From assembly GCA_001606155.1 (NCBI GenBank), contig LODT01000037.1, forward strand, positions 1,798,001 through 1,862,000: DNA of 64,000 nucleotides. Reading direction: 5' to 3'. Made by a program: the position numbers and the translations under genes. The notes under the pieces were generated by a model. That model was not told where the DNA came from. It saw only the letters and a list, made by a program, of their open reading frames with translations, and did no database searches. How positions within the stretch are numbered: the first letter of the stretch is position 1; each line of letters begins with the position of its first letter. Of the stretch, positions 1,937 to 37,648 are shown one piece after another. Source of the DNA: Tieghemostelium lacteum. Taxonomy: Eukaryota; Evosea; Eumycetozoa; Dictyosteliales; Raperosteliaceae.

Positions 1937-3442
1937 TTAATCAATTAATCTTTCTAATAAATTTTGATTGGTTTTTGGTGAGAAATGTTCAAGTACTTGA
2001 GCTTGTCTTCTAATTGTATAACGAACTAGGATAAATGTTGAAACGATAATGAATGCAATACCAACGCCAATACCTGCAAATGCACCTTTTGGAACACCAT
2101 AAATGTAGTCATATCTATAATTTGGAATAAAAGGATCAACAGTACAAAAATAGTTATTTTGAATTTCTGCAAGCATTTTCTGGTCACCATAAAAGTAACA
2201 GGATTGTGAGGTTTTACCTACAACACCACAATCTACACCTTGGTATCTTTGTATGTCTGTATTGGAGACTGTGTTTAAGTCCCAGTCATTATCAGTATCC
2301 AAAGTATAGGAAACAAATTCATCACAATACAGAGTAGCACCTAACACTTGAACAGTATTATTTCTCATATAATTACCACGTAGGTTATATTTACCAATAC
2401 GAGAATACATTACACCACCAGCTAAAACAGCATGATTGTATGTAAAATTATTATTTACAATATCACCATAGGTTCTATTTAAAAGCATTACACCACCAGC
2501 ATAATTTGAATAGTTTTCTTGGAATGTTGAATCCATAACAGTGAGTTTCTTTACATCATCAGTTGCAAAGGCACCACATACATCACCACGATTACCATTC
2601 ATTATGGTATTGGTTATAGTTACTATTGCTAGATTTGCATAAAATACACCACAATAGGTACCAATATTTCCAATAAAGGTGCAGTTGTCAATTGTTAATA
2701 TACCACCTAGTAACTCAAATGCACCGTGCCAAGCTGATGGATCGCCTGGATTAGTTAAACCATAGTTATTAGAGAATGTTGACTCTTTTACAACTAAATT
2801 AGTTGGTATAGTTGATCCTAGGATACCTGCACCATTGTTTCCATAGTTATTTTGAAAGTTGCAATTGTTCAATGTTACATTAACATCACCAAAGATATTG
2901 TCATCTGGTGACTGAATATCAATTACACCACTGCCATAAGTGGAATTTATAAACTTAACATAGACCTTGTTCATTTTAACTACCAAGTCGTCGTGACTAA
3001 AGAATTGTAGTACACTGGCATTAGTGTTAATTAGTGAGAACTCTACATTGATATCGGTAATGGTTATAGATGTAGATGTCTGTGTGGTAGTTGTGTTTCT
3101 AACAATGAATATAGGTTGAACTAAATGATTTATAATGACAGTATTGTCATTTGGTGTTGGTGAATTCGATGTTGTTGATTCTAATGTTACTGTATATCCC
3201 CAAACTAACAATCCAGAATTATCATCACTACTGTAGGTACCATCGGATAACACCAATCTCAATGTATCACCACTCTGATGAGAACTCAAAAATGAGCTCC
3301 AAGCAGCTGTTAAACTCTTACAAGTATCTAATGTAGTTGAACCACAAGTCAAATCAATAGTTCCACTTGTTGATACATATTTAACAATTTCATCTGATCT
3401 AACCAACTGTATAGTTAATAATAATAGTATTAAATATTTCAT
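1937..3442 (-). CDS. Cell-surface beta-helix (pectin-lyase-like) membrane protein
   Basis: I start at the ATG for MKYLILLLL (3442) rather than an upstream in-frame ATG at 3481, because it places a normal signal peptide at the N-terminus. The 501-residue protein has a long ectodomain with repeated N-N-x-G and F-x-x-N patterns (NCNFQNNYGNN, STFSNNYG, NTIMNGNRGD) typical of right-handed parallel beta-helices. One transmembrane segment (GIGVGIAFIIVSTFILV) and a short basic tail follow. This fits a type I surface protein of the kind common in dictyostelids. No catalytic residues can be assigned and the ligand is unknown. Many sequons suggest glycosylation. Confidence 0.75.
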   Translation of the reverse strand: MKYLILLLLTIQLVRSDEIVKYVSTSGTIDLTCGSTTLDTCKSLTAAWSSFLSSHQSGDTLRLVLSDGTYSSDDNSGLLVWGYTVTLESTTSNSPTPNDNTVIINHLVQPIFIVRNTTTTQTSTSITITDINVEFSLINTNASVLQFFSHDDLVVKMNKVYVKFINSTYGSGVIDIQSPDDNIFGDVNVTLNNCNFQNNYGNNGAGILGSTIPTNLVVKESTFSNNYGLTNPGDPSAWHGAFELLGGILTIDNCTFIGNIGTYCGVFYANLAIVTITNTIMNGNRGDVCGAFATDDVKKLTVMDSTFQENYSNYAGGVMLLNRTYGDIVNNNFTYNHAVLAGGVMYSRIGKYNLRGNYMRNNTVQVLGATLYCDEFVSYTLDTDNDWDLNTVSNTDIQRYQGVDCGVVGKTSQSCYFYGDQKMLAEIQNNYFCTVDPFIPNYRYDYIYGVPKGAFAGIGVGIAFIIVSTFILVRYTIRRQAQVLEHFSPKTNQNLLERLID

Positions 3443-35058: not shown

Positions 35059-36321
35059 TTAGAATGTTGGATAAATACCACCATACATGAGAACATTGAG
35101 GTTATCGTTGGAAGCAGAAAGTCTAATGTAACCAGCTTCACCCCACCATGTACCCCAAGAGTTCTTAATAATCCAATAGTCACCAGCAGCATTGTAACCA
35201 ATAAGAGTAACAGCATGGTTAATACCTGATAATTTAGTTGGTGGAACATAGACACCTGATTTATAAGATTGGAATGCACCATCAGCCAACAAACAAACAA
35301 CCATTGGTCCATTCTTTAGCTCATTTATAATAGCTTGTTTACTATTAGAAGCAGTTTGACCTGAACCAACAAATTTAAATCTAGCAGCTGTTGAAGTCTG
35401 TACACAAGTACCTACAGCAGCTTGATATGGCTCCTGAGCTTCAAAAGCGATACCATTAGACTTAAATCCAGAATTTGTATAGACATTCATTGGCCAGCCA
35501 CCATTACAACCATTGGAGATACATGATAATGGGTTTTGTTCGGCAACATCTAGAGTACTCTTTTGACCCAACCCATTTTTAATTAAATATCTTGATTCCA
35601 AAGCAGCAACAGCACCAAAAGCCCAACATGAACCACATGAACCTTGGTTACGAACTGGAGTAGCATAGTTTGTCCAATCGATTGTATTTGGATTTGGTGG
35701 ACTTGTTGTAACAGGTGGAGCTGTAGTTGGTGGTGGGGTTTGAGTTTGAGTTTGAGTTGGTGTTGGAGTTTGAGTTTGAGTTTGAGTTGGTGTTGGAGTT
35801 GGGTTTGGATACTTCAATGTGTATGGTTGTCTATTGGAATAGGTAACTAAGTTATAGTCACAATAGAAATAGGCAACATTGCTACAATTGACCTTAGCAC
35901 AACCGTATTTAGTAGTTCTGATATTCATTACATATACCCATGACCAACATGACTTTCCGGTAGCACAATAGGTTTGAGTCCAGTTATAGTTTGGATAGAG
36001 GTTTTGGATGTTATTGAGGATATAGGTAAGATTGAAATAGGCGTATGGTGACCAAGTCCACATGAATTCACTGTTAATTCCATAGTTGGCTTGTGCAGAA
36101 AAAGTTCTGTTACATGCATTGGCATGGGTTTGCAGAGTGGCAGCAATGGCATCATCATAGACTAAAGGTGGAAGACTTCCTCCACTGTAAGCTGGAATGG
36201 GATTAGCTCTCATCACATTATGCCAATTTTTAATTTGGTTAAGTTCAGCTGATGTGAATCCAGACTGAGCTTTACAATAGGTTACATATAATACTAATAC
36301 AATAAATAGTGATCTCATCAT
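35059..36321 (-). CDS. Secreted CAP/SCP-papain (C1A) fusion protease
   Basis: 420 residues from MMRSLFIVLVLYVTYCKAQ, a clear signal peptide; upstream in-frame Met codons would bury it. Residues 22-165 are a CAP/SCP domain (LNQIKNWHNVMRAN with His34; YGINSEFMW; NIRTTKYGCAKVNC). The usual second CAP His is not evident. Residues 172-212 are a Pro/Thr/Gln repeat linker. The rest is a papain-like C1A peptidase with all catalytic residues: Q226, C232 (QGSCGSCWAFG), H369 (INHAVTLIGY) and N387 (IIKNSWG). There is no I29 inhibitory prodomain between signal peptide and protease. Likely a secreted or lysosomal protease in which the CAP domain replaces the normal propeptide. Confidence 0.9.
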   Translation of the reverse strand: MMRSLFIVLVLYVTYCKAQSGFTSAELNQIKNWHNVMRANPIPAYSGGSLPPLVYDDAIAATLQTHANACNRTFSAQANYGINSEFMWTWSPYAYFNLTYILNNIQNLYPNYNWTQTYCATGKSCWSWVYVMNIRTTKYGCAKVNCSNVAYFYCDYNLVTYSNRQPYTLKYPNPTPTPTQTQTQTPTPTQTQTQTPPPTTAPPVTTSPPNPNTIDWTNYATPVRNQGSCGSCWAFGAVAALESRYLIKNGLGQKSTLDVAEQNPLSCISNGCNGGWPMNVYTNSGFKSNGIAFEAQEPYQAAVGTCVQTSTAARFKFVGSGQTASNSKQAIINELKNGPMVVCLLADGAFQSYKSGVYVPPTKLSGINHAVTLIGYNAAGDYWIIKNSWGTWWGEAGYIRLSASNDNLNVLMYGGIYPTF

Positions 36322-36904
36322 TGTGATACTAAACCAAGGTAGAGATTGGTATTTTAAAATATTTAAAATAAATGAATGGTAAAATAAAAAAAACAATTTA
36401 AAAATTAATCAGGATTCCTATCAAATCAAATATTATTAATTATTTCAATTTAAAAAAAAAACATTTGAAACCCAATTAGAGATATTAAAATAAATATCTT
36501 AAGGGAAATTGGGTATTATTTGGAAAGTCTATCAGATTTTGAAAAGATTTTCATGTAACTTAGTCATTAAACCTACATCAATAGCCTGAGATTGAAATTT
36601 TTTTTAATTAATTAAATGATGCGATCGACATTTTTACCGATTTCTATGATAAATTATAATTTTGAAAATGAAATATCTGTTGAAAATGGGTTTCAGAAAA
36701 ATAAAAAAAAACCTTTAACCACCAAATGATTTAAATTTGATTGGTAAAAGTCAAAAATATCCAGAGAAAGAAAAGAATTTACAAACCAATACTTTTAATT
36801 CTTTCATTTTTTTTAATTTTAATTATTTAATTGTAATCTCTATTTTCTAAATTGTCATCAACATTGTTTAAATACCATCTGTAAAACATTACATATATAA
36901 AATC
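36322..36904. other. Divergent promoter region with nested hairpin
   Basis: 583 bp shared by the CAP-papain gene and the I29-domain gene. ACCCAATT (36470-36477) pairs with AATTGGGT (36507-36514), and inside it GATATT (36481-36486) pairs with AATATC (36493-36498). No open frame. It could coordinate both genes. Confidence 0.45.
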
Positions 36905-37648
36905 ATGAAATATACTACCGTTTTAGTTTTATTGACACTGTGCTTAGTGTCTACCATTGTATCAAGTGCAGTACCTACTGAAGCTGAATTCCAAGCTGCA
37001 TTCAATAGTTGGAAAGAAGCCTTTGGAATCACTTATGACAGTAACGAAAATCAACAGAGATATCAAAATTGGAAAGTATGTTGTTGAACATTATTTCAAT
37101 AATTATAATTATAAAGCATATTAACCATATTTATATCAAAAAAATAGGAAAATATGTTGAAAATTGGTGAATTTAATGCTGCAAATGCTAGACCTGATGC
37201 CTCAGTTTCTGTACCAGATAGTAATTTAGTTGTAAGATCTGAAGATGGAGTTGAATATACATATGCTGCCGAACCAGTTGTTACCTATCCAGGTATAGAT
37301 TCACCACAATTGAGTGCCAATCAATATACTGGTATGACAAATGCTGAGTTTACTGCCCAATTCACTGGAGCTGATAGTTCAATGATTGCTTCAGCTGTTG
37401 CTGCTGCTGCTGTATTGTCTACTGGTGCTATTGTTGGTATTGCTGTCGGTGGTACTGCTGCTGTTGCTGGTGCTGTTGGTGGTACAGTTTATGCTGTTAA
37501 GAAGAGAAGAGCTAACAGATCTACCAAGACTGATGGTGTAGAAATTAAAGAAATCTCATCTCCACAAGCTGGTTCTGGTAAAACTAATATTTACAACTTT
37601 GACAAACCACATCACTCTATCACTGCAAGACTCTTTGGTGGAAAATAA
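36905..37648 (+). CDS. Membrane-anchored cathepsin-propeptide (I29) protein without protease domain
   Basis: Exons 36905-37075 and 37148-37648 (72-bp phase-0 intron, GTATGT..TAG) give 223 residues. A signal peptide (1-21) precedes an I29 prodomain with a perfect ERFNIN-type pattern: E48-x3-R52-x3-W56-x2-N59-x3-I63-x3-N67. The later propeptide motif appears as SANQYTGMTNAEF (compare NQFADMTNEEF), displaced by about a 35-residue insertion (68-112). No Cys/His/Asn catalytic domain follows. Instead there is one Ala/Gly-rich transmembrane helix (about 137-172), KKRR stop-transfer residues and a 45-residue cytosolic tail. Known free I29 proteins (for example CTLA-2) inhibit cathepsins. Neighbour: divergent prodomain-less CAP-papain protease. 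Confidence 0.85.

Follow-up and report, generated by a model that had tools for sequence, protein, structure and literature searches.

Papain-type enzymes normally hold the domain that assists their folding and keeps them safe within the same chain. In a stretch of 64,000 nucleotides from the dictyostelid Tieghemostelium lacteum (GenBank assembly GCA_001606155.1, contig LODT01000037.1, positions 1,798,001 to 1,862,000; C31:1798001-1862000 in our contig numbering, hereafter the window), these parts are divided between two genes standing head to head. A1 encodes a CAP-papain protein without a propeptide; B1 encodes a membrane-anchored protein with an I29 propeptide domain and without a protease. 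A preliminary description of the window had placed such a pair, a protease lacking its propeptide beside a propeptide lacking its protease, at 35059..37648, and both the coordinates and the division of domains are borne out by the gene models and Pfam scans reported here. The A/B pairing is real and recurrent.

The enzyme gene A1

Gene A1 lies on the minus strand (35059..36321) as a single exon encoding 420 amino acids (open reading frame and Pfam scan), and its translation is identical to P0009, an entry listed without a source because it is the protein that the window encodes. Its parts, all on the minus strand, are a likely signal peptide read from the sequence (approximately residues 1-19; 36265..36321), a CAP domain (PF00188; 35854..36222), a low-complexity linker of Pro, Thr and Gln (residues 172-208; 35698..35808) and a Peptidase_C1 domain (PF00112; 35104..35691); a hydropathy scan of A1 found no segment above threshold. 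At Pfam cut-offs of 21.1 bits for CAP, 20.7 bits for Peptidase_C1 and 24.4 bits for Inhibitor_I29, scores of 27.9 bits for CAP and 178.6 bits for Peptidase_C1 place A1 in the CAP superfamily and in papain family C1A, and no I29 match was found in A1 at E <= 1. The linker stands immediately N-terminal of the papain domain, the usual site of the propeptide. In the structure model (mean predicted local distance difference test score, pLDDT, 77.4) the papain domain has a papain fold and resembles solved plant enzymes and cathepsins in a fold search, while the linker is modelled at low confidence (pLDDT below 50 at 172-208); the 50 fold matches listed include no CAP structure, and a search with the CAP region of A1 alone returned the window protein only.

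The catalytic set of A1, located by alignment, comprises C232 (35626..35628), Q226 (35644-35646), H369 (35215-35217) and N387 (35161-35163), all on the minus strand; we take Q226, C232, H369 and N387 to be the equivalents of Q19, C25, H159 and N175 in papain numbering. All 17 proteins in the A alignment keep this set unchanged (the alignment leaves out A4 and A5, two of the T. lacteum relatives A2 to A5 described below), and I29 is absent from the Pfam domain lists of all 17. Our own scans likewise found no I29 in A2, A3, A4, A5 or eight further A homologues; CAP scores were 59.2 bits in A2, 38.1 in A3 and 24.8 in A5, and ranged from 27.7 to 53 bits in all eight homologues scanned. Among the matches listed, several A homologues bear the name 'gamete and mating-type specific protein A' (GmsA). 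A1 falls with Dictyostelium discoideum DDB_G0286015 in a 12-row tree group (support 92/89) that also holds A4 and within which the branching lacks resolution.

The membrane protein gene B1

Gene B1 lies on the plus strand (36905..37648), as do all features described in this section, and encodes a protein of 223 amino acids with a signal peptide, an I29 domain, a transmembrane segment and a tail (Pfam and database identity). Its two exons (36905-37075 and 37148-37648) flank a GT...AG intron (37076..37147; phase 0 after codon 57), and the spliced model is letter-for-letter the T. lacteum protein P0004 (DLAC_09352). The I29 domain (residues 33-125; 37001..37351, across the intron) scores 44 bits; its match to the 59-position profile extends over 93 residues, so that an insert follows the ERFNIN-type helix, and a Pfam scan found no C1 domain in B1. 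The I29 assignment extends to the other B proteins, with 35.4 bits for B2 and 25.6-45.3 bits for B3, B4 and four B proteins from outside T. lacteum.

The ERFNIN-type helix, identified by pattern match, is complete in B1 apart from a change of F to W (E48, R52, W56, N59, I63 and N67; 37046..37177, across the intron), and a relaxed form of the pattern occurs in 5/8 B proteins. The GNFD region is changed in B1, and a relaxed GNFD-type pattern occurs in 8/8. After the GNFD-like stretch, every one of the eight carries the pattern [E/D][F/Y/K]xxxxxG, whose glycine (Gly131 in B1; 37367..37369) is invariant. By its spacing after the E-F pair, for which we presume the spacing of procathepsin L, Gly131 is likely the cleft-contact glycine of propeptide-like inhibitors. 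Within about 10 residues of this glycine the B chain runs into a hydrophobic stretch; for I29 domains in cis, 9 of 15 loci fit the junction pattern, with 23-40 residues from the contact site to the mature enzyme.

The hydrophobic stretch, rich in Ala and Gly, includes the transmembrane segment (residues 134-171; 37376..37489, by hydropathy). The transmembrane part itself (37424-37489) is Gly/Ala-rich with GxxxG-like spacing, which may mean that the helix packs with another helix or with itself. Behind it B1 has a short, basic tail with the conserved motif HHSITAR (residues 212-218; 37610..37630). In the form HxSITxR, this motif stands 3-7 residues before the C-terminus in all eight B proteins (B5 not counted), a conservation suggesting that the tail serves in sorting or binding.

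Between the start codons of A1 and B1 lie 583 bp (36322..36904). The preliminary description had called this a shared divergent promoter: the distance is exact, and 'shared promoter' remains a statement of geometry only. When the divergent regions of five loci were compared under five strict settings, every setting gave 0 shared k-mers, against null means of 0-0.07, so that the comparison has little power to reveal a promoter motif.

Recurrence of the pair in the genome

Profile searches of the 23.3 Mb T. lacteum genome gave 36 C1 matches (25 genes once merged), 19 I29 matches and 18 CAP matches. Fifteen of the 19 I29 matches are in cis, closely followed on their own strand by a C1 domain; the other four are divergent from a CAP-C1 gene, each on the strand opposite to it, and none is left over. 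These four stand-alone I29 genes pair with exactly the four CAP-C1 genes that have intact catalytic residues, at the window, C31:1470304 with 1472162, C42:841818 with 839797, and C42:775227 with 773357. Were four genes placed at random, this arrangement would have a chance of about 1e-15 (assuming 8,000 or 10,000 genes); the figure treats the loci as independent, and some of the linkage is accounted for by an ancestral pair that was duplicated jointly.

The same division appears from the enzyme side. Twenty C1 genes are not cathepsin B-/X-like: 15 have an I29 domain in cis, and the five that do not are the CAP-C1 genes beside a B gene or beside B5. A cathepsin B- or X-like identity was considered as the reason for the missing I29 and rejected: the other five I29-less C1 genes (on C2, C33 and C40, and at C24:451538 and C9:620488) by eye look cathepsin B- or X/Z-like, and they have no CAP match upstream and no divergent I29. 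At the A4 and A5 loci the locus scan found no upstream CAP match, and it took the joined gene models to reveal the domain. The five CAP-C1 pairs are confined to two contigs, three on C31 and two on C42.

Complete gene models were obtained at three further loci, namely A2 (558 amino acids) with B2, A3 with B3, and A4 with B4, and the head-to-head layout is common to the models of all five loci, with gaps of 423-701 bp. For A2, A3, B1, B3 and B4, the models agree letter for letter with named database proteins. B2 is absent from the 7 hits of the B search, and A4 from the matches listed (120 of 706), so the models of these two come from our own splicing only. The CAP score of A4 (20.3 bits over the full profile) is just below the cut-off, and A4 is counted as a CAP protein because its alignment with A1 gives 42% identity. 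In A2 (L046:4538-6291), two CAP stretches lie N-terminal of the papain domain.

The fifth pair (L050:202-1701 and 2403-3188, C31:1416001 onward; CAP-C1 gene at C31:1416370) has a gap of 701 bp. A5 carries CAP (24.8 bits) and C1 (128.8 bits) domains in which the catalytic Cys is changed to Gly and the Gln is replaced, and is thus a predicted pseudoenzyme. Its neighbour B5 has a signal peptide, a single membrane pass and a weakly I29-like ectodomain. It scores 14.3 bits against the B profile, a value reached by 0/1000 region-preserving shuffles (3/1000 for the ectodomain alone and 252/1000 for the tail alone), and matches B1 alone by BLASTP at E 1.9e-4; Pfam finds no I29 in B5, and a whole-genome search with B5 returns B5 only. 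From these matches and its position, B5 is probably a degenerate B partner of A5. With A5 lacking the catalytic Cys and the I29 domain of B5 barely recognisable, the locus fits a loosened partnership and suggests that enzyme and propeptide have loosened together. Near this pair lies a run of genes for secreted or surface proteins with EGF-like Cys-rich repeats (L049:2212-6900, C31:1410212 onward), one of which carries a CAP domain (C31:1411621).

Age of the duplicates

The duplicated genes are divergent: identity to A1 is 35% for A2 (trimmed at its N-terminus), 40% for A3, 42% for A4 and 24% for A5, and identity to B1 is 36% for B2, 28% for B3 and 33% for B4. In a tree of 18 A proteins, built without an outgroup, A3 forms a group with D. 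purpureum and two other species (100/99), outside the 12-row group of A1, A4 and DDB_G0286015, which suggests that the split between A1 and A3 is older than the split of these species; the branches of A2 and A5 are long and their placement is uncertain. Resolution is poor in the B tree, with 0 starred branches. Among 111 flanking open reading frames of at least 60 amino acids from the five loci, no similarity between loci was found at E <= 1e-3 (self-matches were recovered as a check), so it is the pair that stays together and not a large block. Intron sites differ as well, at codon 57 in phase 0 in B1 and at codons 108-112 in phase 1 in B2-B4, and introns were therefore gained or lost after duplication.

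Other dictyostelids

B proteins were found in four cases outside T. lacteum, the fourth being P0006 (EukProt). In Polysphondylium violaceum, A and B have the consecutive tags CYY_004086 and CYY_004087, and both are on contigs of 47,264 bases; in Heterostelium album both are on contigs of 1,052,162 bases, and the two D. dimigraforme genes, tagged 011953 and 011971, are each on a contig of 1,458,294 bases. That A and B share a contig in each species is read from the equal sizes, and the three coincidences would jointly arise by chance with a probability of about 2e-6 (genomes assumed to be 32-34 Mb). The preliminary description had named lack of synteny in related species as evidence against its reading; judged by locus tags and contig sizes, and for these three species only, no such lack was seen.

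A proposed split zymogen and its alternatives

We hypothesize that the A/B pair is a split zymogen in which B, anchored in the membrane, serves in trans as the propeptide that the CAP-papain A lacks, a reading that the sequences make probable. It builds on the domain content of the two proteins, the intact catalytic residues, the repeated head-to-head linkage and the conserved motifs. Both proteins would enter the endoplasmic reticulum, and the I29 domain of B would dock on the papain domain of A like a propeptide in cis; docked B may aid the folding of A, hold it latent and carry it to a site on the membrane, with sorting through the conserved tail of B. Docking, latency and release are modelled on the known role of I29 propeptides. 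Because B continues into a membrane anchor, self-cleavage in cis could not free A, which would have to dissociate (for example through pH) or be released by cutting of B. Since relatives of A are named GmsA, the pair may act in the gamete or at some other stage of cell contact. If the hypothesis is true, the pair is a natural trans-zymogen and a clean model of how propeptides fold and restrain proteases, and GmsA-type proteins, so far known as gamete-specific, gain in B a testable partner.

Several observations weigh against this hypothesis. In D. discoideum (with two A types), D. firmibasis, D. citrinum, D. cf. discoideum, D. purpureum, Acytostelium subglobosum and Cavenderia fasciculata, A was found and B was not, in a search that scored 7,995 candidates sharing 5-residue words with the T. 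lacteum sequences, a requirement that keeps absence from being proof of loss. The D. dimigraforme B was retrieved at E 5e-45, however, so a similar B in D. discoideum would have been expected to show. The species in which A was found without B speak against strict dependence, and the D. dimigraforme tags are 18 apart, so that the genes may not adjoin there. A glycine at the contact site occurs in only 1/9 measurable in-cis I29 genes and is thus no general mark of propeptides, and the structure model of B1 is poor (mean pLDDT 46.3; top fold match at E 0.28, none at E <= 0.001). Distances among A and B proteins are correlated (r 0.86, 0.73 and 0.84 over 8, 7 and 6 pairs; Mantel counts 15/5000, 78/5040 and 17/720), which co-duplication alone would produce and which by itself shows no interaction. 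The earlier proposal of complementary parts acting in trans is partly supported, by recurrence at four loci, by the probable fifth and by the consecutive tags in P. violaceum, and is weakened by the A-bearing species in which B was not found.

B might instead be an inhibitor or guard only, with A folding alone (CAP domain and linker replacing the propeptide) and B checking stray or neighbouring-cell enzyme at the membrane. Stand-alone I29 inhibitors are indeed known, namely CTLA-2, crammer and BCPI (PMC4089206), B keeps a glycine at the likely cleft-contact position, and A apparently occurs without B in several species. We nevertheless rate this reading as unlikely: it leaves unexplained why, of the 20 C1 genes that are not cathepsin B-/X-like, just the five CAP-C1 genes miss the propeptide, and it does not account for the conserved cytoplasmic tail of B. 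That tail, with HxSITxR in all eight B proteins, would be at home in a ligand-receptor pair for cell recognition, in which the papain domain is a ligand fold, catalysis is secondary and the tail of B signals. The name GmsA borne by A homologues, the gamete and sex specificity of gmsA in D. discoideum (PMC4910948), the dictyostelid precedent of tgrB1/tgrC1, which diverge from a single promoter (PMC12324515, PMC6889452), and the layout of pair 5, kept despite loss of the catalytic Cys, all suit such a pair; unchanged catalytic residues in the 17 aligned A proteins do not, and we think it quite improbable. A more elaborate proposal, which we regard as rather unlikely, is a two-gene recognition system in which a membrane I29 receptor would bind a secreted GmsA-type CAP-papain as its propeptide and release it on a pH or contact cue, with a tail that signals or sorts; the duplicated pairs would then be separate sexual or cell-contact specificities, one of them now a non-catalytic ligand and receptor.

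It is also conceivable, if very improbable, that nothing functional ties A to B and that the linkage is the passive outcome of an ancestral A-B unit having been duplicated. A single pair could be the ancestor of all five in T. lacteum, and correlated A-B distances are what this explanation predicts. However, the duplicates look old, A2-A5 being 24-42% identical to A1 and A3 grouping apart from it; the flanks are not common between loci, yet A and B are together at 5/5 loci; and the tags in P. violaceum are consecutive. Chance adjacency of unrelated genes, which the preliminary description had allowed for, found no support, is practically negligible and is rejected: all four stand-alone I29 genes lie opposite a CAP-C1 gene, at the chance of about 1e-15 given above.

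Comparison with known systems

A bacterial parallel to the split zymogen is the lipase-specific foldase (Lif), a membrane-anchored chaperone encoded beside the enzyme that it folds, as B is encoded beside A; unlike B, Lif belongs to a bacterial operon, and the proteins are unrelated. Closer in domain content are CTLA-2alpha, crammer and BCPI, propeptide-like I29 inhibitors for the first of which a signal sequence has been reported, and in which a glycine near the domain end matters for crammer, the matching glycine of CTLA-2alpha being dispensable (PMC4089206). B resembles them as a stand-alone I29 domain without a protease and differs in its long insert, membrane anchor, conserved tail and divergent partner gene; the passages of PMC4089206 hold nothing that links these inhibitors to membrane anchoring or to an adjacent gene for a propeptide-less enzyme.

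On the side of the enzyme, A shares the CAP and C1 architecture of GmsA, and a partial protein name leads us to equate DDB_G0286015 with the gmsA described in the mating papers; T. lacteum differs from the GmsA case in having five CAP-C1 genes. CAP:C1A proteins with the identical domain order are already on record for amoebozoan slime moulds (Planoprotostelium, D. purpureum and P. pallidum; PMC10084794), in a paper whose main text has 0 occurrences of 'propeptide' and whose passages mention neither a missing propeptide nor an I29 partner. Among the matches listed from the open-licence literature searched, the passages name no membrane I29 partner of GmsA or of CAP-C1 proteins. For the gene arrangement, the nearest dictyostelid case is tgrB1/tgrC1, paired genes diverging from one promoter (PMC12324515) whose membrane products bind each other (PMC6889452) and are Tiger proteins with IPT, Ig-like domains (PMC3188802); that pair has neither protease nor propeptide, and the likeness to A/B is one of analogy only. 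Stand-alone I29 proteins and CAP-C1 proteins were thus both already known; the new part is an I29 protein that is anchored in the membrane and genetically linked to an enzyme without a propeptide, a separate partner that stays beside the enzyme gene through repeated duplication.
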